42,109 nt of DNA from Kiritimatiellia bacterium (GTDB lineage: Bacteria > Verrucomicrobiota > Kiritimatiellia > CAIQIC01 > Lenti-01): positions 1 through 42,109 of the forward strand of contig JAFYAC010000004.1 of the NCBI GenBank assembly GCA_017540905.1. The letters are read 5' to 3'. Made by a program: the position numbers and the translations under genes. Within the stretch, counting starts at the first letter, position 1. Each line of letters opens with the position of its first letter. Positions 903 through 40,100 of the stretch are shown here, piece after piece. A model generated the notes under the pieces. It was not told the DNA's origin. It did not search any database and worked only from the letters and a program-made list of their open reading frames with translations.

Positions 903-3047
903 ATGAAGAAATGCCTTTCCAGCCTCTTCGCCGCGCTCGCCGCGCTCGCCGTTGCCACCGTCCTCCACACCTCCGGCCTCGCCCGCTACTGGGAGTGGAC
1001 CCTCTCCGACTGGCGCGCCCGCGTGATGGCCAAACCCGCCCCGACCACCGACCTCGTGAAGCTCGTCCTCGTGGACCAGGCCAGCCTCGACTGGGCCTCG
1101 GCCGAGCAGGGCCTCCCCTGGCCCTGGCCGCGCGAAATGTACGCCGCCATCGTCGATTACCTCACCCGCTGCGGCGCCCGCGCCGTCGCCCTCGACATCC
1201 TCTTCACCGAGCCCTCCTCCTACGGCCCCGAAGACGACGACGCCCTCGCCGCCGCCCTCGCCCGCAACGGCCACGCCGTCGCCGCCGTGTTCCCCGGAAC
1301 CCAGCCCGGCCGCAACGACCGCTGGCCCGCCGCCGCCGAGCAGGCGAACCCGATGGACCTCGAAGGCGGCTTCGCGTCCCTCGACTCCCCTTCCGCCGTA
1401 TTCCCGGTGGACGCCTTGGCGGCTTCGGCGGCTTGGCTGGCCAGCGTCCGCGACCGACCGGACGGCGACGGCGTGTTCCGCCGCTCCATTCCCATGCGCA
1501 CCTTCGACGGTCGGCCCCTGCCATCCCTCGGAATGGCCTGCGCGCTCGCCGGGGAGAGTGGGCCGGCGACTGGCACAATCGTCGTACGCAGGGCCAAGCC
1601 CTGGCGCGAAGCACGCGCCCTCCTCCGCATCGGTTCCGGCTCCGCGCCGCTCGACGCCGACGGTTGCGCCCGCCTCCGCTTCCGCGGTCCCTCCGCCGTC
1701 CACGCCGCCTATTCCGCGGCGGCCGTCATCCAGTCGGAACTCTGCCTCCGCGAAGGCCTGGAGCCGCCCATCCCCGACGGCGAGGCGCTGTTCGGCGGCA
1801 AGTACGTCGTCGTCGGCTTCAGCGCGCCCGGCCTCAAGGACCTCCGCCGCACCCCCATGGGGGGCGACTCGCCCGGATGCGAACTCCACGCCACCCTCGT
1901 CGACAACTGGCTCTCCGGCGACTTCCTCCGCGATCCCCCCGCCGCCGCCGGATGGGCGTGGACCATTGTCCTCGCCATCTTCGCCGCGCTCGCGACCTCG
2001 GCCGCGCGCAACGGCCTTGAAAGCGCCGCCGTCTGGACGGTTTCCGGGCTGGCCCCCTTCGCGGCCGGGTTCGCCCTCTGGCGCTTCGCCGACCTCGAGT
2101 GGCCGATGGCGGTCCCCCTCGCGGCCGCCGTGTCCGCCCTCGGTATCGGCGCGATGCTCAACTACCTCGCCGAAGGCCGCCAGAAGCACTTCCTCAAGGG
2201 CGCCTTCCGCCGCTACCTCTCACCGGCCGTCGTCGAGCAGCTCATCCGCCATCCCGACCGCCTGCGCCTGGGCGGCGAGCGGCGCGAACTGACCATCTTC
2301 TTCTCCGACCTCCAGGGCTTCTCCTCCTTCTCCGAGCGCCTCTCCCCCGAGGACCTCACCCACCTGCTCAACGACTACCTCACCGACATGACCGACATCA
2401 TTCTCGAAGAAGGCGGTACCCTCGACAAGTACGAAGGCGACGCCATCATCGCCTTCTGGGGCGCCCCCATCGAGCAGCCCGACCACGCCGCGCGCGCCGT
2501 CCGCGCCGCCGTCCGCTGCCAGCGCCGCCTCGCCGGGCGCCGCGACGAATGGGCGCAGCGCTACGGCGCCGTCCTCAAGATGCGCGTCGGCATCAACACC
2601 GGCCCCGTCGTCGTCGGCAACATGGGCTCCAACCAGCGCTTCGACTACACCATCCTCGGCGACGCCGCCAACCTCGCCTCCCGCCTCGAAGGCGCGAACA
2701 AGGCCCTCGGCACCTACCTCATGATATCCGAAACCGCCTGGACCGCCACCGGCGGCGCCTTTCCCGGACGCGAACTCGGCGCCCTGCGCGTCGTCGGGCG
2801 CCACACCCCCGTGCGCGTGTGGGAAGCCACCGGCCTCCCCGGCGAGCCCCCGCCCCCCGACGCGGCCCCCTACGAAGCCGCGCTCGCCCTCGCCCGCGCC
2901 GGCGACTGGCCCGCCGCCGCCGCCGCATTCGCCGCCCTCGCCCCCGAGCCCGCCGCGCAGCACCACGCCGACCGCTGCGCCGCCCTGGCCGCGGAACACG
3001 CCGCGCCCGGCGCTTGGGACGCCATCTGGAACCTCACGCAGAAATGA
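903..3047 (+). CDS. CHASE2-domain class III adenylate/guanylate cyclase
   Basis: A 714-residue membrane-bound cyclase that should make cAMP (or cGMP) in response to a periplasmic signal. Order: N-terminal membrane segment (about 5-22), periplasmic CHASE2 sensor (about 35-340), three closely spaced helices (about 345-420), then the catalytic domain (about 455-640). All catalytic residues of class III cyclases are present: metal-binding D469 (FFSDLQGF) and D513 (KYEGD), base-contacting K509 and D581 (FDYT), and transition-state N590 and R594 (NLASR). The Lys/Asp pair favours ATP. An Ala-rich TPR-like tail follows (about 655-714). The ATG at 903 is chosen because the promoter lies at 865-894 and the hydrophobic signal begins there. 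The next gene starts 4 bases after its stop and encodes an MBL-fold hydrolase, suggesting joint control of a cyclic nucleotide. Confidence 0.93.
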   Translation: MKKCLSSLFAALAALAVATVLHTSGLARYWEWTLSDWRARVMAKPAPTTDLVKLVLVDQASLDWASAEQGLPWPWPREMYAAIVDYLTRCGARAVALDILFTEPSSYGPEDDDALAAALARNGHAVAAVFPGTQPGRNDRWPAAAEQANPMDLEGGFASLDSPSAVFPVDALAASAAWLASVRDRPDGDGVFRRSIPMRTFDGRPLPSLGMACALAGESGPATGTIVVRRAKPWREARALLRIGSGSAPLDADGCARLRFRGPSAVHAAYSAAAVIQSELCLREGLEPPIPDGEALFGGKYVVVGFSAPGLKDLRRTPMGGDSPGCELHATLVDNWLSGDFLRDPPAAAGWAWTIVLAIFAALATSAARNGLESAAVWTVSGLAPFAAGFALWRFADLEWPMAVPLAAAVSALGIGAMLNYLAEGRQKHFLKGAFRRYLSPAVVEQLIRHPDRLRLGGERRELTIFFSDLQGFSSFSERLSPEDLTHLLNDYLTDMTDIILEEGGTLDKYEGDAIIAFWGAPIEQPDHAARAVRAAVRCQRRLAGRRDEWAQRYGAVLKMRVGINTGPVVVGNMGSNQRFDYTILGDAANLASRLEGANKALGTYLMISETAWTATGGAFPGRELGALRVVGRHTPVRVWEATGLPGEPPPPDAAPYEAALALARAGDWPAAAAAFAALAPEPAAQHHADRCAALAAEHAAPGAWDAIWNLTQK

Positions 3048-3051
3048 TGCC

Positions 3052-3813
3052 ATGAAAACAACTCCCGGCGGCCTCCGCGGCTCCTTCCCCGTCCCCACCA
3101 CCGACCCCGTATCCGGGGCCACCATCTCCCTCCTCGTCGAATCCGCCGACGGCTCCAGCCAAATCCTCCTCGACGCCGGCACCGGCGTGCTCAACCTCCT
3201 TCCCCGCCTGCGCCCCGGCGCCCTCCTCGCGCTGACCCACTTCCACCTCGACCACCTCCTCGGCCTCCCGTTGCTCGTCCCCAGCGGCCTTTCCGGCATC
3301 CTCACCGCCCGCCCCGACGCCGCAACCATCCTCTCCCGCATCTACTCCCCGCCCGTCTGGCCCGTCCCCGCCTTCAACGCCCCCTTCGCCCTCGCCGCAC
3401 CCGGCAAACCGCACGTCCACGGCGCCCTCACCGTCGCGTTCCACCCCGTCGCCCACCCCGACGGATGCCACGCCATCCGCATCGACGAACCCGCCACCGG
3501 CGAAAGCCTCGTCCTGGCGACCGACATCGAATGGTCCCTCATGCCCCCCGCCGCCCGCGCCGCGTTCGCCGGCTTCGCGCACGGCGCCACCGACCTCTGG
3601 TTCGACTGCCATTTTTTCCCCTCCGAACTCCCTTCCCACCGTGGCTGGGGGCACAGCAGTTGGGAGGAGGCCGTGGACGCCGCCCGCCTGGCCTCCGCCA
3701 AATCCGTCCACCCCCTCCATTATTCCCCCCGCGCCACCGAAGCGGAAACCGGGGACCTCCGTGCCCGGTTCGCCGCCCCCACCCGACCTCCCGTCACCCC
3801 CTCGCGACCGTAA
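3052..3813 (+). CDS. MBL-fold metallo-hydrolase (possible cyclic-nucleotide phosphodiesterase)
   Basis: A 253-residue cytoplasmic protein of the metallo-beta-lactamase fold. The metal-binding signature THFHLDH is at 62-68 (H63, H65, D67, H68), a candidate Asp ligand is D158 (ATDIEW), and the C-terminal GHSSWEEA (200-207) with H223 in PLHYSP completes the pattern seen in MBL proteins encoded beside CHASE2 cyclases in other bacteria. That family is often annotated as RNase Z-like or cAMP phosphodiesterase-like; the substrate is not proven. It is translationally linked to the cyclase, whose stop lies 4 bases upstream. Hydrolysis of the cyclase product is an inference from context. The last 20 bases overlap the 3' end of comF on the other strand. 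Confidence 0.88.
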   Translation: MKTTPGGLRGSFPVPTTDPVSGATISLLVESADGSSQILLDAGTGVLNLLPRLRPGALLALTHFHLDHLLGLPLLVPSGLSGILTARPDAATILSRIYSPPVWPVPAFNAPFALAAPGKPHVHGALTVAFHPVAHPDGCHAIRIDEPATGESLVLATDIEWSLMPPAARAAFAGFAHGATDLWFDCHFFPSELPSHRGWGHSSWEEAVDAARLASAKSVHPLHYSPRATEAETGDLRARFAAPTRPPVTPSRP

Positions 3814-4513
3814 TCGCCATCACGTCGGCCGCCCCGGCCTTACGCAGCGCCTTCGCGCACTCGTTGAGCGTCGCCCCCGTCGTCATCACGTCGTCCACCA
3901 GGATGATTTTCCTGCCCGCCACGAACCGCTTGAACGGCACCGCAAACACCCCTTGAACGTTGCGCGCCCGCTGGGCCGCCGTCAGGTGCGTCTGCGTCCC
4001 CGTCTTCCGCACCCGCCACAGCCAGCCGCGGCGCACGGGAATCCCCGCGATCTTCGAGAGCACGCCCGCGACCAGCGAAGCCTGGTTGTAGGTCCGCTCC
4101 CAGCGCCTGGTCAGGTGCAGCGGCACCGGCACGATGGCATCCGCCCCGCCCGCGCCCTCCGGGCAGGTCGGCCACAGCGCCTCCAGCCAGCGCGCGATTT
4201 CCGGCAGCGCCCAGAACCCCGCATGGTACTTGAGGTTCCGGATGCACGGCCGCACCGGCCCCGCATAGCGCACCGCCGACCGGGCCCACGAAAACGCCGG
4301 ACCGTTCTTCCTGCACCACGCGCACACGTACTTCCCCGGAACCTCCCCCGCGACCGGGTCCCCGCAGATGCTGCAGAACGGCAGCTGCACCACCCGCACC
4401 CGCATCTGGCAGTCCGCGCACAGCGCCCCGTCGCCCACGCCGCGGGCCGGTCGGCCGCAGTCCGCGCACGTCCGCGGATAGACCAGGTCCGCCAGGGTCC
4501 GCAGCGGATTCAT
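3794..4513 (-). CDS. comF: ComF family phosphoribosyltransferase-like protein
   Basis: A 239-residue ComF/GntX protein. The N-terminal half carries four cysteine pairs of a double zinc finger (CADC at about 16, CADC at about 33, CSIC at about 47, CAWC at about 64). The C-terminal half is a type I phosphoribosyltransferase domain with the PRPP-binding loop VDDVMTTGAT at 206-215. In competent bacteria ComF is needed for uptake or processing of transforming DNA; in others its role is unclear. The start ATG overlaps the stop of the upstream DUF4230 gene by four bases (ATGA), so the two are translationally coupled. No other competence genes are in the window. Confidence 0.92.
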   Translation of the reverse strand: MNPLRTLADLVYPRTCADCGRPARGVGDGALCADCQMRVRVVQLPFCSICGDPVAGEVPGKYVCAWCRKNGPAFSWARSAVRYAGPVRPCIRNLKYHAGFWALPEIARWLEALWPTCPEGAGGADAIVPVPLHLTRRWERTYNQASLVAGVLSKIAGIPVRRGWLWRVRKTGTQTHLTAAQRARNVQGVFAVPFKRFVAGRKIILVDDVMTTGATLNECAKALRKAGAADVMAITVARG

Positions 4514-5223
4514 GCCTTCGCGGCGGCGTTGTCCGCGGCGGCCCCGCTGGCCTCGCCCGCGCGGCGCGGCTCCCCGTCCGGGAATTCGACCTCGACCGCT
4601 TCCGCCCCGAACCCCTTCGCCAGCATCTCCAGCGTCTGCCGCGCCGACGTGCGGACCTCGCCCCCCAGGCGCCGCGCCAGCGTGTCGGCCAACCCTTCCG
4701 CCTGCGACCGCGCCTCGTCCATGAGCCGGTTGCGGTCCTCCTCGCGGAACCCGCCCGGCAGCAGCTTGTTCACCACGTCCGGCAGGATGATCGGCAGCAG
4801 CTTCTCGTCCTGCTCGTCGTAGAACGTGATGTTCCGCACGTTCACGGCGTACGCGCACCGCGGCATCCGGATCTTGTACCGCCCCGGCCCCGCCTCCTCC
4901 ACCGCGAAGTCCGGATCCCGCAAATCGTACTGGAAATCGATGTCGAACTCGAAAATCATCGCCATCTTCCGCGACGTCACCAGCCATTCCAGGTAGCGTT
5001 TGCCCACGTTTCCCAGCGAGTGGTCCCGGGCCGTCACGATTTCCTTCGTCACCGCCTTGAACACCGACAGCACGCCGATGCTCCTCAGCTCCTCGATGGA
5101 CGCCGTCGCCCTGACCTCCATCGCGCTTTTCTTCCCGCCTCCCCGCCTCCACTTCCACAACAGCACCACCAGCCCCGCGCAAACCAACCCCCATACAAAA
5201 TTCGTCACGATCTGTTGCATCAT
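4510..5223 (-). CDS. DUF4230 domain membrane-anchored protein
   Basis: A 237-residue protein with one N-terminal membrane segment (about residues 5-23) followed by a soluble domain that matches the DUF4230 type: a SIEELRSIG start, a GNVGKRYLEWL stretch, then a beta-rich part (FEFDIDFQYDL) and a charged C-terminal helix. Its function is unknown. The start at 5223 is chosen over an in-frame ATG near 5397 because a promoter (TTGCGG-N18-TATAGT) lies at 5230-5259 and ends 6 bases before this ATG, and because the membrane segment begins there. It is the first gene of a two-gene unit with comF. Confidence 0.82.
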   Translation of the reverse strand: MMQQIVTNFVWGLVCAGLVVLLWKWRRGGGKKSAMEVRATASIEELRSIGVLSVFKAVTKEIVTARDHSLGNVGKRYLEWLVTSRKMAMIFEFDIDFQYDLRDPDFAVEEAGPGRYKIRMPRCAYAVNVRNITFYDEQDEKLLPIILPDVVNKLLPGGFREEDRNRLMDEARSQAEGLADTLARRLGGEVRTSARQTLEMLAKGFGAEAVEVEFPDGEPRRAGEASGAAADNAAAKA

Positions 5224-5229
5224 GCCCCC

Positions 5230-5259
5230 ACTATACCCCGCCCCCACCCCGCCCCGCAA
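5230..5259 (-). promoter_or_regulatory. Promoter of DUF4230-comF, leaderless type
   Basis: Read on the minus strand, TTGCGG (5259-5254) and TATAGT (5235-5230) are 18 bases apart, and the -10 ends 6 bases before the ATG at 5223. Confidence 0.6.
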
Positions 5260-5296
5260 GCCGCGATCTGCCCAAGTACCCCTTCCCAGCGGCGGT

Positions 5297-5361
5297 CGGA
5301 CGTCCTCGGACGTCCCCGGACCCGGCTCGGGATTTGACGTTTCGCGCGGCGGTGGTATCTT
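5297..5361 (+). promoter_or_regulatory. grpE promoter with upstream GGACGTCC repeats
   Basis: TTGACG at 5334-5339 and TATCTT at 5356-5361 are 16 bases apart. Just upstream, two 10-bp direct repeats (CGGACGTCCT and CGGACGTCCC, 5297-5316) each contain the palindrome GGACGTCC and may be an operator. They do not match the CIRCE element of HrcA. The leader to the grpE ATG is about 28 bases. Confidence 0.55.
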
Positions 5362-5395
5362 GTCGGGAAGCCAAGCGAATAAAACAGGTACCACC

Positions 5396-6025
5396 ATGAA
5401 TCCACTCTACCCCCAAGATCCCGAAACCGAAACCGAAGCCGAAGCCGACGTTCCCGGCGCCATCCCCGACGACGATCTCCGGGAAGACCCGGTTGCCGCT
5501 GAATCGGACGCGGAAAGCGCCATCCCGGAAGAAGCCGCCCCGGCCGAGGCCGCCGGCGAGGACGACGGGGAGCCGAACGACGCCCCCTCCCCGGAGGACG
5601 TGCTCAAGGACCGCCTGCTCCGCCTCCAGGCCGACTTCGACAACTACCGCAAGCGCATCGACCGCGAGCGCAAGGACTGGGCCGTCTTTGCCAACGAAAA
5701 GCTCCTGAAGGACCTGCTCCCCGCGCTGGACAACTTCGACCTCGGCCTGGCCAACGGCGAAAAGGCCGGCGCCCCCGCCGCCCTTCTCGAAGGCCTCCGC
5801 CTGGTCCAGGGCCAGTTCGAGTCCGCCCTCGCCAAGTCGGACATCACCCCCATCGACGCCGGCGGCCTGCCCTTCGATCCCAATCTCCACGAAGCCATCA
5901 CCCACATGCCTTCCGCGACCGTCCCCGAGGGAACCGTCATCGCCCAGACCCGCCGCGGCTGGAAGATGGGCGACAAGCTGCTCCGCGCCGCCCAGGTCGT
6001 CGTCTCCTCCGGCGAGCCGGCCTGA
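5396..6025 (+). CDS. grpE: Nucleotide exchange factor GrpE
   Basis: A 209-residue GrpE, the exchange factor that releases ADP from DnaK. Residues 1-65 are an acidic, disordered Glu/Ala/Pro-rich tail. The long dimerising helix starts near LKDRLLRLQADFDNYRKRIDRERKDW, and the C-terminal beta domain contains the family pattern FDPNLHEAI and VIAQTRRGWKMGDKLLRAAQVVVS. The ATG at 5396 follows the promoter at 5334-5361; the frame stays open further upstream, but that part lies before the promoter and has no family match. No dnaK, dnaJ or hrcA lies next to it in the window. Confidence 0.95.
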   Translation: MNPLYPQDPETETEAEADVPGAIPDDDLREDPVAAESDAESAIPEEAAPAEAAGEDDGEPNDAPSPEDVLKDRLLRLQADFDNYRKRIDRERKDWAVFANEKLLKDLLPALDNFDLGLANGEKAGAPAALLEGLRLVQGQFESALAKSDITPIDAGGLPFDPNLHEAITHMPSATVPEGTVIAQTRRGWKMGDKLLRAAQVVVSSGEPA

Positions 6026-6152
6026 TTCCCTTTCCCCATCCTCTCCCCGCTTTCCCCCGCTTCCCGCGGCACCGCGCGGCGCACACCCCTGAATTTTTCA
6101 AGTGCGCTCCGCGCCGAACTCGGCTATAAGATTCCACCCAAAGGAGTCGGCG

Positions 6153-6680
6153 ATGAAAACCATCCACTTTCTTCTCGGTTTGTTTCTGTATCTGGCCCTC
6201 GTGGCGCTCGGCCTCGGGTTGATCCTGGCCCACCAGTTCCCCGCGTCCGCGCACACGGCGCTGGACTGGACGTGCGGCCTCGCCCGCTGGCAGCACGTGC
6301 TGCTCGGCGCCGGACTGCTCCTCTGGCTCGCGCTCTACTTCGTCACCGGCCTCCCGCGCCGCCGCCCGCAGTTCATCCGCTTCGAGAACGAGACCGGCAG
6401 CATCAACGTCAGCACCGACGCCGTCCGCAAGTACATCGACGGCATCCGCTCCGACTTCGCCGCCCTCGCCTGGCTCAAGTCCGCCCTCCGCGTCCGCCGC
6501 GGCGCGCTCGAAGTCGGCATCGTCGTCGGCGTCAAGTCCGGCACCCAGATTCCCGAACTCTGCCGCATGATCCAGAAGCGCGTCGGCGAAGTCCTCGCCG
6601 AGCACCTCGGCACCTGCGACCTCGCCGGCATCGGCGTCGAAGTCAACGAAATCCGCCCGCGCAACGCCGCGGCCGACTGA
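6153..6680 (+). CDS. amaP: AmaP-like alkaline-shock response membrane anchor protein
   Basis: A 175-residue protein with two N-terminal membrane helices (about 4-27 and 46-65) followed by a cytoplasmic domain of the AmaP/Asp23-associated type (INVSTDAVRKYIDGI, then GVKSGTQIPELCRMIQKRVGEVL and a final IGVEVNEIRP strand). In Firmicutes AmaP anchors Asp23 to the membrane; no Asp23 (DUF322) partner gene is visible here. A clear AAGGAG site at 6141-6146 precedes the ATG at 6153, which favours this start over the ATG at 6102. It is followed by gmhA 19 bases downstream, so the two are probably cotranscribed. Confidence 0.8.
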   Translation: MKTIHFLLGLFLYLALVALGLGLILAHQFPASAHTALDWTCGLARWQHVLLGAGLLLWLALYFVTGLPRRRPQFIRFENETGSINVSTDAVRKYIDGIRSDFAALAWLKSALRVRRGALEVGIVVGVKSGTQIPELCRMIQKRVGEVLAEHLGTCDLAGIGVEVNEIRPRNAAAD

Positions 6681-6699
6681 CCGCCCCGGAGGCTCCGTG

Positions 6700-7275: not shown

Positions 7276-7291
7276 CCCAAGGAGCCCTCCC

Positions 7292-8224: not shown

Positions 8225-8260
8225 TGCACCGTAAAGCTCATTCTTTCACATCTCTTTTGG

Positions 8261-8373: not shown

Positions 8374-8483
8374 CCGGGCCCTGCAAAGACGAATGTTTTG
8401 ACTTTGCGCTGTACTCGGGCGGTTCAAGGAACAGAGAGGCTGCTGTCGATTGTGTCGCCCACCATGAACGATCTTCTCCATAG

Positions 8484-8549: not shown

Positions 8550-8638
8550 ATGCGGCTGGAAAGCCTCCGAAAAGCCACAGCATCTCCGCCTGCCCCCATC
8601 CACCATCCCGTCCACCCCCCTCCCCATGCCCCTCCCGT

Positions 8639-11335: not shown

Positions 11336-11341
11336 GTCGGT

Positions 11342-11396
11342 ATCCTACACCTTCCGACGGGAAATTTCACTATGATTTCCCTATTGTTTCACTATG
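11342..11396 (-). promoter_or_regulatory. Fic promoter with direct repeats
   Basis: On the minus strand GTGAAA (11370-11365) and TAGGAT (11347-11342) are 17 bases apart, and the -10 ends 6 bases before the ATG at 11335. The ten-base sequence CATAGTGAAA occurs at 11374-11365, overlapping the -35, and again at 11396-11387, exactly 22 bases (two helical turns) away. It is a candidate operator. From here to 11601 I see no gene. Confidence 0.5.
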
Positions 11397-11601: not shown

Positions 11602-12948
11602 TCAGTCCACGAACACCTCGTCGAAGCCTGCCGCGTCCAGGCGCGCAAGGCACGCCGCCAACTCCCCGAGCGGCACATCCGCGTCCACCCGCAGCTCCAC
11701 CGGAGCGCGCTCCCCGTCCAGCACCTCCTCCAGCGACGACGCGACCGCCAGCACCGTCTCGTTCTCCGCCAGCCCCCATCCCCTCGCGGCCAGCTCCGAC
11801 GGCGCGAACGTCCGCAATTCGCCCGAAAGCCCCCCCTCCCGCGACAGCCGCAGGGCCCAGTACGGCGTTCCCGGCCGCAGATGCACATCGGGCGACCGCA
11901 CCGTCAGGACCCCCTCCGAATGCGGACGGAGGGAGTGCACCACCCCGCGCCGGATGGGCAGCACCCCCTCCGGCGTCCGGAAAAAATACCCGCCGTAATG
12001 CCGCATCAGCGCGCTGTACGGCATCGCCGCGTCCACCTCCGCCTCCGGGCCCGCCGCCAGCGGCACCACGAACACCTCCCGCCCGCCCGTCCACGGCAGG
12101 TCAGACCGCTTCCGCAGCGCGCGAGCCGAAGGCGAATCCCCCAGCCGCGTTCCGAACTCGTTCCGCCCGTCCGTCCAGAACCACAGCCACGCGTCCTCCC
12201 CGCCCACCTCCGGCCGCTCCACCCAGAGGTCGTACCACGCCAGCATCGCCGCATGCCGCCAACTGCGCACCGCCGGGAGCGGCTCCTGTCCCGACCACAA
12301 CCGCTGCCCCGCCCGCGGCGTCTGCCCGTCCCACGCCATGAACACCCAGAGCGCGACCGCCGCCGGCGCCAGCAGCAGCTTCCAGCCCAGCCGCCACCGC
12401 CGTCCGTCCAGCCACGCCGTCCACGCCGCCGTCAACACCCCCGCCAACGCCACCGTGGCCATCAGCACCCCCTCGTCGGCCACGCTCGAAGTATGCCACA
12501 CGTCCCTCCCTCCCATCACGGTGCCCACAATCCACAGCGCCCCGCAAGCCACCCCATACGGCGCGAAAAACCACATCGACCGGAGCGTCCTCTTCCCCCA
12601 GCCCGCCCCGTCCGGCGACTTCTTTCGCTCCGCCGCCAACCACAGCGTCAGCAGCCACGACGCCACGATCAGATACACCACCCCCACCAACGCCACCGAC
12701 GCATACATCGCCCCGCCGCCCTCATCCGTCCCCCCTTGAAGGAACGGCATCCACTCCGCGTGCGGACCCGCCTCCGCCGGAATCCACCCCGGACCCGGCC
12801 AAATCCCGGCCCGCCCGGCCCGTCCGGCTACCCAAGCCACCCCCATCAACAGTACAAGCGCCGCCAGCCCCCCGACCACCCCCAGCTTCACCAACCCGAC
12901 CGCCCGCCGCACCACCCCCGTCTCCTTCCGTTTTCCCGTCGCATTCAT
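11602..12948 (-). CDS. Five-helix membrane protein with ExbD-like C-terminus
   Basis: A 448-residue protein of unknown function. Five membrane helices are predicted at about 18-41, 81-105, 124-145, 159-180 and 188-206, followed by a ~240-residue extracytoplasmic part. The final ~50 residues (APVELRVDADVPLGEL, then ACLARLDAAGFDEVFVD) resemble the periplasmic domain of ExbD/TolR, which normally sits on a single-helix protein and couples proton flow to outer-membrane work. No exbB or tonB is adjacent. The start at 12948 is preferred over the in-frame ATG at 12969 because TTGACA-N17-CAGGAT ends 6 bases before it. Confidence 0.78.
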   Translation of the reverse strand: MNATGKRKETGVVRRAVGLVKLGVVGGLAALVLLMGVAWVAGRAGRAGIWPGPGWIPAEAGPHAEWMPFLQGGTDEGGGAMYASVALVGVVYLIVASWLLTLWLAAERKKSPDGAGWGKRTLRSMWFFAPYGVACGALWIVGTVMGGRDVWHTSSVADEGVLMATVALAGVLTAAWTAWLDGRRWRLGWKLLLAPAAVALWVFMAWDGQTPRAGQRLWSGQEPLPAVRSWRHAAMLAWYDLWVERPEVGGEDAWLWFWTDGRNEFGTRLGDSPSARALRKRSDLPWTGGREVFVVPLAAGPEAEVDAAMPYSALMRHYGGYFFRTPEGVLPIRRGVVHSLRPHSEGVLTVRSPDVHLRPGTPYWALRLSREGGLSGELRTFAPSELAARGWGLAENETVLAVASSLEEVLDGERAPVELRVDADVPLGELAACLARLDAAGFDEVFVD

Positions 12949-12954
12949 GGCCCC

Positions 12955-12983
12955 ATCCTGCCCATTCACCCGCCCCCTGTCAA
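12955..12983 (-). promoter_or_regulatory. Promoter of the ExbD-like membrane protein, leaderless type
   Basis: On the minus strand a consensus TTGACA (12983-12978) is followed after 17 bases by CAGGAT (12960-12955), ending 6 bases before the ATG at 12948. Confidence 0.6.
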
Positions 12984-18144: not shown

Positions 18145-18173
18145 TTGACGGCTAACGATCGTTAGCCTATACG
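18145..18173 (+). promoter_or_regulatory. GNAT-TetR promoter with perfect palindromic operator
   Basis: TTGACG (18145-18150) and TATACG (18168-18173) are 17 bases apart. The spacer is filled by the perfect 18-base palindrome GGCTAACGATCGTTAGCC (18150-18167). A regulator bound there would block RNA polymerase. The TetR gene at 18991 in the same operon is the obvious candidate. Confidence 0.85.
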
Positions 18174-18226
18174 CTTGGGCCATGGCAACACGCCCGCACC
18201 GTGCGGGACAGGAAAGGCGGCTATGG

Positions 18227-18994: not shown

Positions 18995-19665
18995 CGACAC
19001 CACCCGCCATGCCCCCCGCTCCTCCAACCACCAAGGAGCGCATCTTGCGCGCCGCCCTCGAACTCTTCGCCCGCGACGGCTACGACGGCGTCGGCATGCA
19101 GCGAATCGCCAAGGCCATCGGCATCAAGGCCCCGTCGATTTACAAGCACTACAAAGGCAAGCGCGACATCTTCGAAGGCATCCTCCGCCGCATGGAAGAA
19201 CTCGACGCCGAAGCCGCGGCCGCCTGCAACCTGCCGGTCGCCCCTCCTGGCAAGGACCCCGCCGCCTACGCCCGCTCCTCCGCGGCCGACCTGGTCGCCT
19301 TCGCCCGCCGCCAATTCCGGTTCTGGACCGGGGACCCCTTTGCTTCGGCCTTCCGCCGCATGCTCACGGTCGAGCAATTCCGTTCCCCCCGGATGTCCGC
19401 CCTCTACCGCGCCTATCTAGGTGCCGGCCCCCTCGAGTACGTCACGGCCCTTCTCGGCTCGCGGGAAGCCGCCCTGGCCTTCTACGCCCCCATGCACCTC
19501 CTCTACGCCGTCCACGACTCCCCCGGGGGCCGCCAGGCCGCCAAACGTCTGTTGGACGCCCACTTGACCGCCTGGTCGCGCGGATGCACGTCCCGGTCCG
19601 CACCCCGCGGGGAGAAACGCCCGTCCGCGCGCCCCCGGCGGCAAGGAACGCTCAGAACGGATTGA
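18991..19665 (+). CDS. TetR-family transcriptional regulator
   Basis: A 224-residue TetR regulator. The N-terminal DNA-binding domain is at about 14-62, with helix-turn-helix MQRIAKAIGIKAPSIYKHYKGK (36-57), typical of the family. The C-terminal ligand domain is unlike any I can name, and the last 30 residues are basic and low complexity. It is cotranscribed with the GNAT gene (four-base overlap) and likely represses the operon through the palindrome at 18150-18167. The inducing ligand may be the GNAT substrate; that is a guess from context. Confidence 0.92.
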   Translation: MTTPPAMPPAPPTTKERILRAALELFARDGYDGVGMQRIAKAIGIKAPSIYKHYKGKRDIFEGILRRMEELDAEAAAACNLPVAPPGKDPAAYARSSAADLVAFARRQFRFWTGDPFASAFRRMLTVEQFRSPRMSALYRAYLGAGPLEYVTALLGSREAALAFYAPMHLLYAVHDSPGGRQAAKRLLDAHLTAWSRGCTSRSAPRGEKRPSARPRRQGTLRTD

Positions 19666-28663: not shown

Positions 28664-28692
28664 TTGCATCGGAACACCGGTTCATCTATCTT
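28664..28692 (+). promoter_or_regulatory. Radical SAM gene promoter, leaderless type
   Basis: TTGCAT (28664-28669) and TATCTT (28687-28692) are 17 bases apart. The -10 ends 7 bases before the ATG at 28700. Confidence 0.65.
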
Positions 28693-28699
28693 CCTGCCG

Positions 28700-31695: not shown

Positions 31696-31724
31696 TTGCA
31701 TCCCGTCCCGGGGTGGGGCATAGT
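31696..31724 (+). promoter_or_regulatory. Mutarotase promoter, leaderless type
   Basis: TTGCAT (31696-31701) and CATAGT (31719-31724) are 17 bases apart. The -10 ends 7 bases before the ATG at 31732. Confidence 0.6.
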
Positions 31725-31731
31725 AGGCCGC

Positions 31732-33737: not shown

Positions 33738-33822
33738 GGCAGCCCACGCAACGGCAGCAAGTGCCCTTTTTCCGGGACCGCCAATCTCCGCAACGTGTAC
33801 CGCCCCTTCCCCTCCCCCCGCA

Positions 33823-35823
33823 TCACTCCACCCGCACTTCCAGCGCCGCCAGCCGTCCCGGGCCCTGCACGCCCGCGAACTCCAGCTCGTTCCGCCCGCC
33901 CCCGAACGTCTCCTCGAACACCTGCGTGCTGATTTCCCCAGGACGGAACCGCATCAACTCGCCCCGCCCCGCCCTTACCGTCGCCTCCCCGCCCACCGCG
34001 GTGCCCGTCACCAGCACCCGGCACTTCTTTTTCTCCAGCCCCGCCGGCCTCCACACCTCGACCACGCCCTTTTCGTCGCCCAGAATCCGGTAATCCCTGA
34101 AATCCCCCTGCTGCCAAGGTTTGAAAAGCTTCCAACCACCGCCGAAGAACACTGCCGCCGGCGCGCAGCGGGCGAACTGCTTCGCCGCCGCCTCTTCGTG
34201 GGTGTCCCAGAAGATTTCCACTTCGACGCGGCTCGGGTTCAAGTAGAACTCTTCCATGGGCGCGAAGCCCGTCTTTGCCAGCCGCAGCCCCGCCGCGTTC
34301 GTCACGACCGACCGGTGCGCGAACCATTTTTCCGGCCACGTCCACACCCCCATCCGGTCGGCGTGGTTGCGCGAGAGCCGGATGAACGCCTGCGCCCCAT
34401 TCTGCTCGAAGAAGCGTTTTGTCACGCCCCTCCAGTCGTTCGCCACGTACTGTTCGTACGGCTCGTCCGGCACGGTGAAGCCCACATTCACCTTCTCCGG
34501 CGCGTACAGCGCCATCTCGTTCCACGGCTCCAGCCACCGGTCCACGATGGCCACATCCCCCTCCGCCAGGTTCCCGTCCAACCACGCCCGCAGCGCATGG
34601 TACGGCGTCGGCTTCCCCTCCACCCGCGTCACCTCCCACGCCGGCCACGCCAGCACGGCGGCCAGCCCCGCCGCCGTCGCCGCGAGGCCAATCGCGCGTT
34701 TCCGGCCGCCCAGCCGCTCCCAGGCGGCCGCCAGCACGGCGCTGCACCACACGATCCAGATGGGCGTGGCAACCGCGAAATACGTCCATTTCGCAACCCC
34801 GTTTCCGATGATGGCGATCGACGTCGCCGAGACCGCGATCGCCCCCCACGCGCCCCAGCCCAGCCGTGCCAGGCCCGGGTCTTGCGCATCCCGTTCGGAG
34901 CGATGGCACCAACCAATCCAGATGGCGGCCGCGACGACGGCCACGAGGGCCGCGACGCCGAACCAGCCTCCGCCCGTCACGACGGCGACGGCCCGCGACA
35001 GCACCCATCCCGCGGGATTACCGGTATGGTGGCCCACGCCCGTGTTCGCGTTGTGGACCTCCTGGAGCGCCCGCAGCACCCATCGCAACGTCCCAGCCAG
35101 CAGTCCCAGGGCCACGGCTGACGTGAATACCAAATGCCGCGTCCGGGCCTTGCCGGAGAGTCCCCGCCAGCCTGCAACGGCGATCCATGCGCCCGCGGCG
35201 GCCGTGACCGCCCATCCAGACATGTGGCAGAGACAGGTGCCCTGGGCCGCCAGATACCACTCTGCATACCGCCACCATCCCGCCGCATGCCCTGCCGCCA
35301 ACCCTCCGGCCAAATCCACTGTCCGCAACGCCATCCACGCGGCAAACAGCATTGCCGGTGCGTAATAGTAGGCTTCGCGCGATTGGTACACGGCGAACGG
35401 CAGCAATCCCAGCCAAACCGCGCACAGCGCCCCGGCCGCCGCCCCACGTCGGCGCCACGCCCAGGCCGCGCACAGCAGCAACGTCGCCATCCCGGCCACC
35501 GCGAACGGCTCGCGGACGGTACGGATGTCCACCTCCCGCCCCAGCCAGCCGCACCACAGTGCCGGGATGCCGTCCACAAACGGAATCTGGTTCAGCCACG
35601 GCGGATTCTGCCACAGTTCGATGGCTACGGCCGGCCCCCGCTCCGCGTAGCGCAGCTGGTTGATTTCGTCCGACCGCGTCGCCGACCGTTCCAAGTGGGT
35701 TCCCCGCAACCAGCAACCGGCGGCAACCGCCAGCACGGCAACGGCGAGCCATCCCCACCATGCGGTCGTCCCGTGCCCGCCTGCCATTCCCCCGCCAACC
35801 GCCTGCATGTCTTTCGTGTCCAC
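33823..35823 (-). CDS. GT-C membrane glycosyltransferase (GT39/ArnT-like)
   Basis: A 666-residue polytopic protein with about 11 membrane helices in residues 20-380 followed by a ~270-residue soluble C-terminal part. After the first helix comes RSDEINQLRY with the acidic pair D52-E53, the catalytic signature of GT-C enzymes such as the PMT/ArnT families that take sugar from a polyprenyl phosphate donor. Its target is unknown. The start is GTG at 35823 with a GGAG site at 35830-35833; an ATG at 35808 is an alternative. It is divergent from the GT2 gene and lies among other glycan genes, which supports cell-surface glycosylation. Confidence 0.85.
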   Translation of the reverse strand: MDTKDMQAVGGGMAGGHGTTAWWGWLAVAVLAVAAGCWLRGTHLERSATRSDEINQLRYAERGPAVAIELWQNPPWLNQIPFVDGIPALWCGWLGREVDIRTVREPFAVAGMATLLLCAAWAWRRRGAAAGALCAVWLGLLPFAVYQSREAYYYAPAMLFAAWMALRTVDLAGGLAAGHAAGWWRYAEWYLAAQGTCLCHMSGWAVTAAAGAWIAVAGWRGLSGKARTRHLVFTSAVALGLLAGTLRWVLRALQEVHNANTGVGHHTGNPAGWVLSRAVAVVTGGGWFGVAALVAVVAAAIWIGWCHRSERDAQDPGLARLGWGAWGAIAVSATSIAIIGNGVAKWTYFAVATPIWIVWCSAVLAAAWERLGGRKRAIGLAATAAGLAAVLAWPAWEVTRVEGKPTPYHALRAWLDGNLAEGDVAIVDRWLEPWNEMALYAPEKVNVGFTVPDEPYEQYVANDWRGVTKRFFEQNGAQAFIRLSRNHADRMGVWTWPEKWFAHRSVVTNAAGLRLAKTGFAPMEEFYLNPSRVEVEIFWDTHEEAAAKQFARCAPAAVFFGGGWKLFKPWQQGDFRDYRILGDEKGVVEVWRPAGLEKKKCRVLVTGTAVGGEATVRAGRGELMRFRPGEISTQVFEETFGGGRNELEFAGVQGPGRLAALEVRVE

Positions 35824-35922
35824 GTTCGCTCCAGTCGTTTCCCGTTTATCCTATTCCATCCCCGTTCCTGTCCAGTCCAATCCGCGCCGGGCCGGAAAAT
35901 GTTTCCCGCCGTGCGGGAGCGC

Positions 35923-35951
35923 TTGCCATCATCCTACCCATGCGCTATTTT
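35923..35951 (+). promoter_or_regulatory. GT2-epimerase promoter
   Basis: TTGCCA (35923-35928) and TATTTT (35946-35951) are 17 bases apart. This lies downstream of an in-frame ATG at 35940, so the ATG at 35964 (12 bases after the -10) is the likely start, with a leader of only a few bases. Confidence 0.55.
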
Positions 35952-35963
35952 CTGCCAATACGC

Positions 35964-37061
35964 ATGCAACCAGATTTCCAGCCGCCACCCGTTCCTTCCC
36001 CCCCCCCGGATTCCCCTGCGGGAATCCCAGTCACCGCCGTCATTCCCGCATACCGTTGTGCGGCCACTCTCCCGCCGGTCCTCGACGCCCTTCTCGCCCA
36101 GAGCATGCCAGCGGCGCGCATCATCGTGGTGGACGACGCCTCTCCAGACGATTTGGAACAACGGCTCGCCCCCTATGCCGGGCGCATCGAGGTCATCCGG
36201 CATCCCTCGAATTGCGGACTTGCCCGTTCCTACAACGATGGCTTCCGGCTGGTTTCCACGCCCTTCGTCATGACCCTCCACAGCGACTGCATCCTCGAGC
36301 CCGGCTACCTGGGACACCTCTGGACGGCCCTGCGCGACCATCCGGATTGGGCCGTGGCCACGGGACAGTACGTCTTTCCCGACATCGACAGGATGTCCCC
36401 GACCGACCGCCTGTATCTTGCCCTCAATCTCATCCCCCGCACCCCGATCTATGCCGCCGGCGAAACTGGAACCGTGTCTTTCATCGAAGGGAAGGCGGAC
36501 TTGTTCCGCACGGACTGCCTCCGCAAAACCAGTTTCTTCGACGAAAGCTATGTCCTGACCAGCGAAGACCAGGACATCTCGGCGAAATTCCGGGCCAACG
36601 GCTGGAAACTGGGCGTCGTCGGGGCGGCCCATTTCCGGTCCGCGTTCGGCGGCACCCAGGATTCGGTGCGCAAGGTCCTCCGCAAACAGCGCACCTATGC
36701 CCGCGGCCAGGCCCTCCTTGTGCTGCGCCACGGCAGCCACATCTTCGCCGTTTCCAACGCCAACCGGAACGCCAGGGCCTTCCACCGACTGGTGCAGCTT
36801 GTCATGGCCGTTCTGGGCTTTTTCCTGCTGGCATCGGCCCTGGTGGCCGCCTCGTGCGGGGCCTTCCCCCTTGCCGCCCTGTTGGGCGGCGCACTGGCCG
36901 TCGTCCTGCTGCTCCGCTGGATTTCCTACCTTTGGATCTGCCGTTGGCTTCCCTGCCGCGAACGTCCGTCCGCCGCGGCCCTCGGTTGTTTCGCCGATGC
37001 CTGTTATGCGCTTGGCGCCGTCGAAGGGCTTTGCAAAGGGGCTTTCCGCGGCAAGGCGTGA
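35964..37061 (+). CDS. GT2-family glycosyltransferase
   Basis: A 365-residue family 2 glycosyltransferase. The GT-A domain has VTAVIPAYRC, VVDDASPDD, the metal-binding HSDC in place of DxD, and the SEDQDIS stretch with the catalytic Asp near residue 190. A QRTYARG block follows. Two C-terminal helices (about 270-320) attach it to the inner membrane. The sugar and acceptor are not readable. It lies 24 bases upstream of an SDR epimerase with an AAGGAG site, so both are one unit and the epimerase may make its nucleotide sugar. Confidence 0.9.
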   Translation: MQPDFQPPPVPSPPPDSPAGIPVTAVIPAYRCAATLPPVLDALLAQSMPAARIIVVDDASPDDLEQRLAPYAGRIEVIRHPSNCGLARSYNDGFRLVSTPFVMTLHSDCILEPGYLGHLWTALRDHPDWAVATGQYVFPDIDRMSPTDRLYLALNLIPRTPIYAAGETGTVSFIEGKADLFRTDCLRKTSFFDESYVLTSEDQDISAKFRANGWKLGVVGAAHFRSAFGGTQDSVRKVLRKQRTYARGQALLVLRHGSHIFAVSNANRNARAFHRLVQLVMAVLGFFLLASALVAASCGAFPLAALLGGALAVVLLLRWISYLWICRWLPCRERPSAAALGCFADACYALGAVEGLCKGAFRGKA

Positions 37062-37085
37062 ATCCGTGAAAACAAGGAGACATCC

Positions 37086-38102
37086 ATGAAAGCGTTGGTT
37101 ACGGGTGGCGCGGGCTTCATCGGCTCGCACGTCGCGGACGAATTCCTCCGCCGGAACTTCGAGACGACCGTCCTCGACGACCTGTCGGGTGGGTTCCGGG
37201 AAAACGTCCCCGCCGGCGCGCGCTTCGTCGAGGGCTCCGTCAACGACGACGCCCTCGTCGAACGGCTGTTCGCGGAAGAGAAGTACGACGTGGTCTTCCA
37301 CCTCGCGGCCTATGCCGCCGAGGGCCTGAGCCATTTCATCCGGCGTTTCAACTACACCAACAACCTCGTCGGCTCCGCCACCATCATCAATGCCGCCGTC
37401 CGCCATCCCGTGCGCGTTTTCGGCTTCACGTCCTCGATTGCCGTGTACGGCGCGAACCAGGTTCCCATGCGCGAGGACGTCCAGCCCGCCCCCGAGGATC
37501 CCTACGGCATCGCCAAGTACGCCGTCGAACTCGACCTCGCGGCCGCCCACCGCCTCTTCGGACTCGACAGCGTCGTCTTCCGCCCCCACAACGTCTACGG
37601 CGAACGCCAGAACATCGGCGACCGCTACCGCAACGTCATCGGCATCTTCATGAGCCAGCTCATGCGCGGCGACCCGCTGACCGTCTTCGGCGACGGCGAA
37701 CAGCAGCGCGCCTTCTCCCACATCTCCGACGTCGCCCCCGTGATGGTTTCGGCCCTGCTCTCGGAAAACTGCCGGAACGAGGTCTTCAACGTCGGCGCCT
37801 CCACCCCCTACAGCGTCAACCAGCTCATCCGCGAAATCGCCGATGCCTTCGGCGTCGAGCCCCGCGTCACCTACCTCCCCGCCCGCAACGAAGTCAAGGT
37901 TGCCTACTCCTCCCACGACAAGATCCGCAACGCCGTCCCGTGCCCCGATCCTCTGCCCCTCCGCGAAGGCATCCGCCGGATGGCCGAATGGGCCCGCGCC
38001 CACGGGCCCCGCAAGGGTGACGTGTTCTCCTCCGTGGAAGTCTGGAACAACATGCCCCCCTTCTGGCGTCAGGAACTCGCCGAGGCCGGCATGGCGCCGT
38101 AA
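37086..38102 (+). CDS. NAD-dependent epimerase/dehydratase (GalE-like extended SDR)
   Basis: A 338-residue extended short-chain dehydrogenase. The NAD motif GGAGFIG is at 7-13, the catalytic Tyr-Lys is in DPYGIAKYAVEL (about 138-149) and TSSIAVYG supplies the Ser/Thr. The substrate-binding half contains RPHNVYGERQN and DGEQQRAFSHISD. Close relatives act on UDP-glucose, UDP-GlcNAc or their uronates; the exact sugar cannot be fixed. It follows the GT2 gene in one operon. The convergent LamG gene ends 36 bases beyond its stop. Confidence 0.92.
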   Translation: MKALVTGGAGFIGSHVADEFLRRNFETTVLDDLSGGFRENVPAGARFVEGSVNDDALVERLFAEEKYDVVFHLAAYAAEGLSHFIRRFNYTNNLVGSATIINAAVRHPVRVFGFTSSIAVYGANQVPMREDVQPAPEDPYGIAKYAVELDLAAAHRLFGLDSVVFRPHNVYGERQNIGDRYRNVIGIFMSQLMRGDPLTVFGDGEQQRAFSHISDVAPVMVSALLSENCRNEVFNVGASTPYSVNQLIREIADAFGVEPRVTYLPARNEVKVAYSSHDKIRNAVPCPDPLPLREGIRRMAEWARAHGPRKGDVFSSVEVWNNMPPFWRQELAEAGMAP

Positions 38103-38138
38103 TCGGGGACGCCCCGCGATTGGGAGCTCCTTCCGCCT

Positions 38139-39146
38139 TCAGCGTCCTGCGTCCGTCCCCCGATGCCCATCGGCGGAATGGCGCTCGATGAGCCGTTGGA
38201 GCGCATCCAGATACTCCGGGCTCGCGGCACGGTCGCGGCGCCCCTGCAACACCAGTTCGCGCAGCTCGGAAAGGATCCTCTCCCCGTCCTGGGACGGATT
38301 CTGCCATGCCGGGAAGATGCGGGACGGACCGACCGACCGGGGTGACGGCACTGCGGGGGGCACATTGCATTCGGGGCGTGCGACACCGGGACAACGCGCC
38401 TTCTCGCGGTACAGGCGGGCGACCTGACCGCCGTCGAGGGCTTCCGGCCAGATGCGCAGGTCGGCCAGATCGAAGTCCCCGTAACAAGACAGCGGCAAAG
38501 CCGCGTGGTCGCGGAATCCGATCAGCAAATCGGTCTCCGCGCAATGTTCGAGGGTGCAGGGAAGGGCATCCCCTCCGACGGGCACTCCGTCCAGATAGAG
38601 CCACGCGCCCTTCGGCCCGAGCACCATCGCGGCGTGGTGCCATAGGTCCGGTGCAAGCGCCACGGACGAAACCACGCGCCGGTGCCCGCCGCGCGGCGAG
38701 GAGAAGTTGGCGTGCAGGGTGTGGTCCGTGAACAACTCCAGAGCATAGTCCTCGTTGTCGTGGTACGACGTGTTGCGCTTGAAAACGATGGCACCCGGCT
38801 CCTCCGCGTTGGAACCCGCACGGGCGCGGATCCAAACCGCGACGGTGATGGCGTCCGGCTCCAGCGAAGCCGAGCGCGGCACGCGGATGCAATCGTCGCG
38901 TCCGTCCAAGCGCACCGCCCGGCCCTTCTTCCCGATGCCCGCCACGAACTCGGGATTTCCGCCAAGCCTGCCATCGTTGCGCCTTCCTCCCGAATCCCGG
39001 ACGAAATTCCTGTTCCCGCACCCGGAAAAGTCGTACTGCAGGACCGGGGCCGGGATTGGAATGTCCGCCACAGGCGGCTGCGCGCCCCCCGCCAGGGCGG
39101 CAATACACAGAAACGCGAAAAACAGGAGGTTGGTGGACCTTTTCAT
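38139..39146 (-). CDS. Secreted LamG/concanavalin A-like domain protein
   Basis: A 335-residue protein with a signal peptide (1-22, MKRSTNLLFFAFLCIAALAGGA). Residues about 35-255 form a LamG-type jelly roll (YDFSGCGNRNFVRDSGGRRNDGRL, KGRAVRLDGRDDCIRVP, AITVAVWIRA, LWHHAAMVLG, GAWLYLDGVPV, FDLADLRIWPEAL), a fold used for carbohydrate or protein binding. A Pro/Arg-rich link and a short helical end follow; no enzyme domain is seen. It starts 3 bases after the stop of the DPM1-like transferase and is probably cotranscribed with it. Confidence 0.88.
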   Translation of the reverse strand: MKRSTNLLFFAFLCIAALAGGAQPPVADIPIPAPVLQYDFSGCGNRNFVRDSGGRRNDGRLGGNPEFVAGIGKKGRAVRLDGRDDCIRVPRSASLEPDAITVAVWIRARAGSNAEEPGAIVFKRNTSYHDNEDYALELFTDHTLHANFSSPRGGHRRVVSSVALAPDLWHHAAMVLGPKGAWLYLDGVPVGGDALPCTLEHCAETDLLIGFRDHAALPLSCYGDFDLADLRIWPEALDGGQVARLYREKARCPGVARPECNVPPAVPSPRSVGPSRIFPAWQNPSQDGERILSELRELVLQGRRDRAASPEYLDALQRLIERHSADGHRGTDAGR

Positions 39147-39149
39147 GTG

Positions 39150-40100
39150 TCAGCCATTCTTTTCCTCGGCGGTGTCCTCGGAGACCAGGTACAGCGGCCG
39201 CCCCTTCCCCTCCTCGTAGATGCGGCTGACGTACTGCCCCAGCACCCCGATGCACACCAGCTGCGCGCCGCCCAGGAACACCATCGCCGTGACGGTCGAC
39301 GCCCACCCCTTCTCCAGCGACTCGGGATGGAAAAAGACCTGCCAGAACACATACACCGCCAGCCACACCGCCACCAGGCACACCGCCATGCCGAAGTGCG
39401 TGATCCAGCGCAGCGGCATCGCCGAGAAGGACGCGATGGCGTCGAACGCCAGCTTCGCGCTCTTCCACACGGGGTACTTCGTCTCGCCGGCGAAGCGCGC
39501 GGCCCGGTCGTACTGCACCGCGGCCTGCTTGTAGCCCACCCAGCACGTCAACCCGCGCATGAAGCGGTGCAGCTCGCGCATTTCCTTGAGCGCGTCCACC
39601 ACGCGGCGGCTCACCAGGCGGAAATCCCCCGCATCCATCGGCACGTCGACCTGCGCCATCTTGTGGAAGACCCGGTAGAAGCTGGCGGCGAGGAACTTCT
39701 TCATCCACGTCTCGCCCTCGCGGCTGCGGCGCACGGCGTACACCACGTCGGCGCCGCCCTCCCAGGCGGCGATCAGCTCGGGGATGACCTCCGGCGGGTC
39801 CTGCAAGTCGGCGTCCATGACGACGACCGCGTCGCCGACGGCGCGGTCCAGCCCCGCCGTGATGGCGAACTGGTGGCCGAAGTTGCGCGAGAGCCGGACC
39901 ACGCGCAGGTGCGGCTCCTCGCGGGTCTTGGCGACGGCCCACTCCGCGCTGCCGTCCGTGGACCCGTCGTCCACCAGCAGCAGCTCCCAATCCTCCGCGC
40001 GCGCGGCGAACACGGCCGACACCCGCGACACCAGCTCCGGCAACGATTCCTTCTCGTTCAGGAACGGCACGACCACCGAGATTTTCTTAGCGTTTTTCAT
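39150..40100 (-). CDS. DPM1-like polyprenyl-phosphate glycosyltransferase (GtrB/ArnC type)
   Basis: A 316-residue family 2 enzyme that moves a sugar from a nucleotide to undecaprenyl phosphate on the inner membrane face. Motifs: SVVVPFLNEKESL (about 8-20), LLLVDDGSTDGS, VVMDADLQDPPE with the metal-binding DAD, and DAGDFRLVSRRVVDAL. Two C-terminal helices (about 226-250 and 262-285) match the GtrB/ArnC architecture. The product would be a donor for a GT-C enzyme such as the one at 33823. The start at 40100 is chosen because the promoter TTGAAC-N17-TAGGGA ends 7 bases before it; an ATG at 40136 falls inside the -35. Confidence 0.94.
   Translation of the reverse strand: MKNAKKISVVVPFLNEKESLPELVSRVSAVFAARAEDWELLLVDDGSTDGSAEWAVAKTREEPHLRVVRLSRNFGHQFAITAGLDRAVGDAVVVMDADLQDPPEVIPELIAAWEGGADVVYAVRRSREGETWMKKFLAASFYRVFHKMAQVDVPMDAGDFRLVSRRVVDALKEMRELHRFMRGLTCWVGYKQAAVQYDRAARFAGETKYPVWKSAKLAFDAIASFSAMPLRWITHFGMAVCLVAVWLAVYVFWQVFFHPESLEKGWASTVTAMVFLGGAQLVCIGVLGQYVSRIYEEGKGRPLYLVSEDTAEEKNG

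Follow-up and report, generated by a model that had tools for sequence, protein, structure and literature searches.

Leaderless genes in described bacteria and probable ones in the window

Leaderless genes are already established in bacteria; we describe their probable occurrence in a poorly studied branch, on a 42,109-nucleotide contig from a Kiritimatiellia bacterium (JAFYAC010000004.1, assembly GCA_017540905.1; this whole stretch is referred to as the window). Zheng et al. (2011; PMC3160421) detected leaderless genes in 207 of 953 bacterial genomes, and GeneMarkS-2, as summarised in PMC9581028, likewise predicts them in many bacteria. The TA-led genes of Zheng et al. resemble those studied here, with a Pribnow-like box about 10 bp before the start and a scheme in which the promoter-proximal gene of an operon may lack a leader and the distal ones depend on a Shine-Dalgarno (SD) site. 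The difference lies in the organisms, Verrucomicrobia not being among the phyla listed; in the accessible main text of that paper the strings Verrucomicrobi, Opitutus, Akkermansia, Chlamydi and Planctomyc have no occurrence (PMC3160421). In Deinococcus-Thermus a -10 box a few bases before the open reading frame (ORF) similarly drives leaderless expression, but there about 30% of ORFs are concerned and reliance on other promoter sequence is weak, whereas a TTG -35 element at 17-18 bases is the rule here (Zhong et al., 2025; PMC12340547, whose main text, as available, has no occurrence of Verrucomicrobi).

Within the phylum, Cappable-seq placed 10% of the confident Akkermansia muciniphila start sites at annotated gene starts (Ettwiller et al., 2016; PMC4782308, in part). 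This is of the same order as the roughly 10% of first genes reported below, although 5' ends were measured there and promoter sequence is read here, and an Akkermansiaceae row falls in a different supported clade of our rpoB tree. An earlier interpretation of the window made from its letters alone (the sequence-only reading) knew of no description for this lineage, which, as far as the matches listed go, holds for the narrow lineage only and not for the phylum. Two Verrucomicrobia have also been termed SD-scarce, in the excerpt seen of PMC10783764. Among the full-text matches listed, which cover few subscription papers, no further leaderless report was noticed for Verrucomicrobia and their genera, Lentisphaerae or Kiritimatiella.

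In the window's genome, sigma-70-type promoters abut the start codon at a sharply defined distance, do so ahead of operon-first genes, and retain this geometry in relatives. A minority of operon-first genes is thus very probably leaderless. Their share would be about one in ten first genes by a two-box promoter pattern, and perhaps up to 18% by a mixture model that over-fits.

Promoter geometry in the window and across the genome

The seven -35/-10 pairs named by the sequence-only reading are all present, with spacers of 17-18 bases, 6-8 bases to the ATG, and a long frame beginning at each ATG (Table 1). Its two near cases, the GT2 gene and an alternative ATG of the GNAT gene, are also as described; at its greater distance the GT2 gene would be expected to carry a leader of a few bases. 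Pfam assigns six of the products to CHASE2 plus cyclase domain, DUF4230, Fic, radical SAM, aldose epimerase and GT2. For the ExbD-like protein, whose name is that of the sequence-only reading, neither Pfam nor NCBIfam gives a match at E 0.001. The nearest NCBIfam model for the radical SAM protein is TIGR03916, a putative DNA modification/repair radical SAM protein, which it matches below the family cut-off (239.7 vs 343.5 bits).

Table 1. Promoters and spacer elements in the window
Feature	Positions	Strand	Layout
CHASE2-adenylate/guanylate cyclase promoter	865..902	+	-35 TTGACG 865-870, spacer 18, -10 TATCAA 889-894, 8 bases to ATG 903
DUF4230 promoter	5224..5259	-	-35 TTGCGG 5254-5259, spacer 18, -10 TATAGT 5230-5235, 6 bases to ATG 5223
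Fic promoter candidate	11336..11370	-	-35 GTGAAA 11365-11370, spacer 17, -10 TAGGAT 11342-11347, 6 bases to ATG 11335
ExbD-like promoter	12949..12983	-	-35 TTGACA 12978-12983, spacer 17, -10 CAGGAT 12955-12960, 6 bases to ATG 12948
Radical SAM repair gene promoter	28664..28699	+	-35 TTGCAT 28664-28669, spacer 17, -10 TATCTT 28687-28692, 7 bases to ATG 28700
Aldose epimerase (mutarotase) promoter	31696..31731	+	-35 TTGCAT 31696-31701, spacer 17, -10 CATAGT 31719-31724, 7 bases to ATG 31732
GT2/DPM1-like transferase promoter	40101..40136	-	-35 TTGAAC 40131-40136, spacer 17, -10 TAGGGA 40108-40113, 7 bases to ATG 40100
GNAT promoter (near case)	18145..18181	+	-35 TTGACG 18145-18150, spacer 17, -10 TATACG 18168-18173, 8 bases to alternative ATG 18182
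GT2 (near case)	35923..35963	+	-35 TTGCCA 35923-35928, spacer 17, -10 TATTTT 35946-35951, 12 bases to ATG 35964
LexA-type box	28672..28683	+	GAACACCGGTTC (GAAC-N4-GTTC), in the promoter spacer of the radical SAM repair gene
Perfect palindrome	18150-18167	+	GGCTAACGATCGTTAGCC, in the promoter spacer of the GNAT gene

The window, with a G+C content of 68%, holds six matches to TTGNNN-N17/18-YANNNT-N6/7/8-ATG against a mean of 0.53 and a maximum of 3 in 60 dinucleotide shuffles. Four are the radical SAM, mutarotase, ExbD-like and DUF4230 genes; the other two (833 and 14306) start frames of only 11 and 33 codons. This strict form misses the cyclase (TATCAA), DPM1-like (TAGGGA) and Fic (GTGAAA) genes. 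With a scored promoter model, trained on the window's genome (G000) only, 14 of 378 ATGs that open at least 100 codons, overlapping spurious frames included, have a site at 5-9 bases, compared with 3 of 353 that open fewer than 40.

The window is an entire contig of a 3.5-Mb metagenome-assembled genome (MAG) of 178 contigs, 84% complete. Together with 60 further stretches it gave a sample of 704 kb, about one fifth of the genome. Genes were called with a simple hexamer model blind to the DNA upstream of starts; 518 of the 546 genes, those with 60 upstream bases available and a start within the stretch, were retained. A gene was taken as first if its predecessor lay on the opposite strand, or on the same strand beyond a gap of 30 bases or more (n = 318, with 36 stretch-edge genes excluded), and as internal if a same-strand predecessor lay fewer than 30 bases away (n = 164). 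A stricter first-gene set, with gaps of 30-79 bases taken out, comprised 257.

The sequence-only reading had proposed looking for a genome-wide distance peak at 6-8 bases, and in this fifth of the genome the peak is there, centred on 7. The two-box pattern, TTG-N3 followed after 16-19 bases by a YANNNT that ends 6-8 bases upstream of the start, is found at 31 of 318 first genes and none of the 164 internal ones (p 2e-6), while other three-base bins hold 0-5 first genes. At 5-9 bases the count is 33 of 318, against a mean of 0.97 and a maximum of 6 over 300 shuffles, and the spacers concentrate at 17 bases (21 cases) and 18 (10), every other length occurring 0-3 times. TANNNT alone lies 6-8 bases before 15 of the 257 stricter first genes and none of the 164 internal ones, with 0-4 at other single distances. 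As in the TA-led type, a -10 box thus stands about 10 bp before the start codon above shuffled expectation. The scored model places 0-1 of the 164 internal genes at 6-8 bases across cut-offs. The geometry is accordingly restricted to operon-first genes, and internal genes show an SD peak, which bears out the statement of the sequence-only reading that genes inside operons are SD-led. Its naming of skp and aroF as SD-led fares unevenly: skp has a strong site (9.3 bits), aroF a moderate one (4.6 bits) together with a borderline promoter score of 7.1 at 7 bases.

The same distance emerges without gene calls. Over the whole genome, TTGACN{17,19}TANNNTN{5,9}ATG occurs 28 times and a reversed-pattern control not at all; with the ATG at 25-29 bases the same form occurs 5 times. 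Among the trinucleotides that follow promoter-like sites, ATG shows the strongest enrichment at 6-8 bases (66 vs 13.8 expected from composition) and lies outside the top five at 16-18 and 26-28. The ATG counts rise and fall with distance in a reading-frame phase, and the phase-adjusted expectation at 6-8 is about 19. Secondary highs of this three-base phase stand at 10, 19, 22 and 25 bases, and are probably promoter-like matches within coding frames. As weaker support, the base at -1 is a pyrimidine in 30 of 32 leaderless-like genes and in 91 of 121 SD-led genes (p 0.026), as expected of a YR start site.

In the mechanism we propose, ordinary sigma-70-type promoters would transcribe these genes from -10 boxes that end 6-8, mostly 7, bases before the start. 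RNA polymerase usually initiates a few bases past the -10 box, so at this spacing the first transcribed base would fall at, or within a couple of bases of, the A of the AUG. The resulting messenger RNA would have neither leader nor SD site, and ribosomes carrying initiator tRNA would engage its 5'-terminal AUG. SD sites are present at operon-internal genes and at many of the remaining first genes.

Retention in orthologues and competing explanations

Orthologues of six of the seven genes (cyclase, DUF4230, ExbD-like, radical SAM, mutarotase and DPM1-like) were taken from 18 genomes of the family and scored at a cut-off of 7. Of the 54 rows besides the window's own, 28 have a scoring promoter at 5-9 bases and 3 have one at another distance; the remaining 23 have no scoring promoter or no aligned ATG. 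These are counts and not independent trials, the rows being related by descent and the training set of the model containing window genes. Retention is strong for three genes. All 11 radical SAM orthologues keep the -35, the 17-base spacer, the -10 and 6-7 bases to the ATG. Nine of 11 DPM1-like orthologues pass at 6-9 bases, and the other two share the layout with scores of 5.8 and 6.7 (12 of 20 loci, L187-L198 with the window's own included, were examined; the weaker matches L199-L206 were left out). Three of four ExbD-like orthologues keep both geometry and TTGACA, the fourth having no aligned ATG.

For the other three genes retention is weak or confined to the genus. One of two mutarotase orthologues, in the congener G090, reads TTGCCA-18-CATAGT-6-ATG, and the other has no aligned ATG. 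Two of 14 DUF4230 orthologues score, both in congeners, as TTGCGG-18-TATAGT-6 before an ATG one codon downstream; the 6-base distance is retained although the ATG has shifted. Two of 12 cyclase orthologues score: that of G090 reads TTG-18-TATGGT-6-ATG between differing flanks, and the other, from outside the genus, has a poor -35.

Synteny with G090 is limited: in the 244 kb sampled from it, matches of at least 55% identity to the window exist only for the cyclase, the gene next to it and the radical SAM gene, and the orthologues of each gene were therefore looked for separately. With the model trained on G000, 12 of 99 G090 first genes fall at 6-8 bases, one of them the radical SAM orthologue, whose stretch had been chosen on purpose beforehand; the next bin holds 5, and shuffles give 0.55-1.65 over four cut-offs. 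Without gene calls, ATG enrichment in G090 is highest at 6-8 bases (18 vs 4.1) and second at 26-28 (9 vs 4.1); this second rise is what leadered genes would produce.

The likeliest alternative, itself improbable, is that starts are mixed: transcription would begin 1-5 bases ahead of the AUG or at scattered positions, and promoters further upstream would add leadered transcripts. It gains from a distance of 8-9 in most of the scoring DPM1-like orthologues and of 12 in the GT2 gene. The sharpness of the peak argues against it: in G000, ATGs number 40 at 7 bases (mean 9.7 and maximum 17 at the other distances in phase with it), 18 at 6 bases (same-phase mean 4.8) and 8 at 8 bases (4.3).

Several observations weigh against the leaderless interpretation. 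Besides the peak, ATG counts climb to 17 at 10 bases and 14 at 19, distances with no known promoter meaning, and at most cut-offs the scored model finds one of 164 internal genes at 6-8 bases in G000 and one of 46 in G090. The mixture model yields large promoter classes on shuffled data as well (5 shuffles), for which reason its 18% is an upper guess and only its distance peak was retained. The sample is about a fifth of a single incomplete MAG. Ten of the 12 cyclase orthologues score no promoter, and of the 12 DUF4230 orthologues from outside the genus (DUF4230 loci, L210-L224) 11 carry an SD-like GAGGT or AAGGA shortly ahead of the start and three score a promoter 26-40 bases away; for these two genes the leaderless trait would be genus-level at most, and the DUF4230 pattern suggests promoter replacement between the genus and its outside relatives.

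The start codons themselves are a further point. The coding signal of the first ten codons is weaker in leaderless-like genes (0.14) than in SD-led ones (0.36; upstream DNA, -0.47), so that some leaderless-like starts may be wrong. A downstream in-frame start with an SD site exists in 4 of 32 leaderless-like genes, and in the ExbD-like gene AAGGAG stands six bases before a GTG that is the 12th codon (12913-12927, minus strand), a possible internal start; three orthologues retain the AAGGAG, with GTG there as the 13th codon. On this evidence the promoters could be real and translation begin downstream, giving leaders of at least 20 bases. We consider this very improbable, since a downstream start has no need of the ATG that is the top trinucleotide at 6-8 bases, and since the rate of downstream SD starts is near that in SD-led genes (10 of 121) and other first genes (15 of 129). 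In addition, the alignments of the radical SAM orthologues, with 70-93% identity, begin at residues 1-4, and the ATG stands there in 12 of 12 loci.

About as improbable is that TAGGAT, CAGGAT and TAGGGA are AGGA-type SD sites of ordinary leadered genes. The sequence-only reading omitted that these three boxes hold AGGA or AGGG at SD spacing; their SD scores are 5.6 bits for DPM1-like, 3.8 for ExbD-like and 0.7 for Fic. Yet the first two genes also have a TTG -35 at 17 bases, where Fic has just GTGAAA, and relatives drop AGGA while keeping a -10 box: TATGAT in two DPM1-like orthologues and TAGCAT in one, TAGAAT in one ExbD-like orthologue. From these orthologues an SD-only reading of the ExbD-like and DPM1-like boxes was judged unlikely. 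The Fic hexamer is ambiguous and may be either a -10 box or an SD site. The -10 boxes of the radical SAM, mutarotase and DUF4230 genes contain no SD core at all, and with every hexamer containing AGG, GGA or GAG removed (no -35 being required) the genome-wide peak persists: of 354 genes that are first or lie at a contig edge, 39 have the box at 6-8 bases, and seven further three-base bins hold 8-19. An AGGA, GGAG or GAGG core at -15 to -4 is absent from 30 of 32 leaderless-like genes and from 158 of the 285 remaining first genes (p 7e-6), a deficit that is partly built in, as the -10 box occupies the SD position.

That AT-rich hexamers were simply picked by eye with a free choice of start has next to no probability: several starts had been moved by the sequence-only reading and two of the six strict window matches begin no real gene, but controls with starts picked blind to upstream DNA, or with no gene calls, refute it genome-wide.

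We therefore retain leaderless initiation as the most probable reading for a minority of first genes. For the seven window genes it has the statistics and conservation on its side, with the exceptions that Fic is ambiguous, that an internal SD start is possible in the ExbD-like gene, and that two of the five upstream ATGs said to be removed do not exist. The correction stands for the cyclase (in-frame ATG 129 bases upstream), DUF4230 (174 bases) and the GT2 gene (35940 and 35760, the former with a weaker promoter-like score of 8.0 at 7 bases). The only in-frame upstream start is a GTG in the ExbD-like gene and a TTG in the DPM1-like gene.

Possible spacer operators and the setting in the phylum

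Two promoters carry a palindromic element between their boxes (Table 1). The element of the radical SAM repair gene has the form GAAC-N4-GTTC, known as the LexA box of Gram-positive bacteria; the LexA motif published for Verrucomicrobia reportedly differs. The form is present in 11 of 12 radical SAM loci, the window's own included, and also upstream of recA in G090 (L180). Within 60 bases of called genes it occurs at two genes only in each of the two genome samples, and across the 60 G000 stretches its total (6) is at the level expected from composition (5.7), so that the case rests on conservation and on recA, and lone sites mean nothing. A LexA repressor bound in the spacer would directly block the leaderless promoter. 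A uracil-DNA-glycosylase-based repair system of Verrucomicrobia is under SOS control according to the available part of PMC8565304, and such control would fit a radical SAM repair protein. The palindrome of the GNAT gene looks like an autoregulatory operator. A TetR-family gene follows the GNAT gene at 19009-19665.

Separately, the non-coding DNA before the cyclase (about 200-780) contains repeated palindromic elements CCAA(C/T)CATTGGAAAA and an inverted pair of blocks around GAGTACTGCGG. An element TTGGAAAA in L002 resembles those of this region.

In an rpoB tree the window's genome, L062 (an uncultured bacterium) and L071 (a Lentisphaerae MAG) cluster together at support 100/99, and the Verrucomicrobia, Akkermansiaceae, Chthoniobacterales and Spartobacteria rows form a separate clade, also at 100/99. 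A MAG labelled Paceibacterota (L070) lies beside both clades, the branching order not being resolved. The tree has 19 rows including the window's genome, from 20 named loci picked out of at least 80, with L063 and L098 removed for a stop in translation; closer relatives may be missing from it. No 16S ribosomal RNA match was found in the window's MAG. By this placement the genome is in the Verrucomicrobiota/Lentisphaerae group and probably outside the class of Akkermansia.

The strong pattern was also counted over 145 genomes of the phylum, at 5-9 bases and at 25-29. The totals are 3934 vs 2835, with 28 vs 5 in the window's genome, 951 vs 638 in 38 other members of its class and 859 vs 457 in the 15 genomes of family f23, all of one genus; several families have ratios near or below 1 (325 vs 363 in f27, 33 vs 44 in f24). 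These ratios compare only loosely, as the 25-29 control holds real leadered promoters, base composition varies between genomes, and in some genomes a reversed-pattern control equals the pattern count. The leaderless pattern looks widespread in the phylum, yet uneven.

Whether this amounts to more than a local oddity we regard as evenly balanced. Leaderless initiation may be old and widespread on the Verrucomicrobiota side of the Planctomycetes-Verrucomicrobia-Chlamydiae (PVC) group, with genes such as DUF4230 and the cyclase switching between leaderless and SD-led states as promoters are replaced. Operators would then sit inside the promoter spacer, as the LexA-type box and the GNAT palindrome do, because there is no leader to house regulatory sites.

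With the leaderless interpretation, a deep, uncultured branch of the Verrucomicrobiota would join the bacteria that mix leaderless and SD initiation. Start-codon choices in such genomes could escape SD-based gene finders, and the sets of orthologous promoters would allow the gain and loss of leaders to be traced inside one family.

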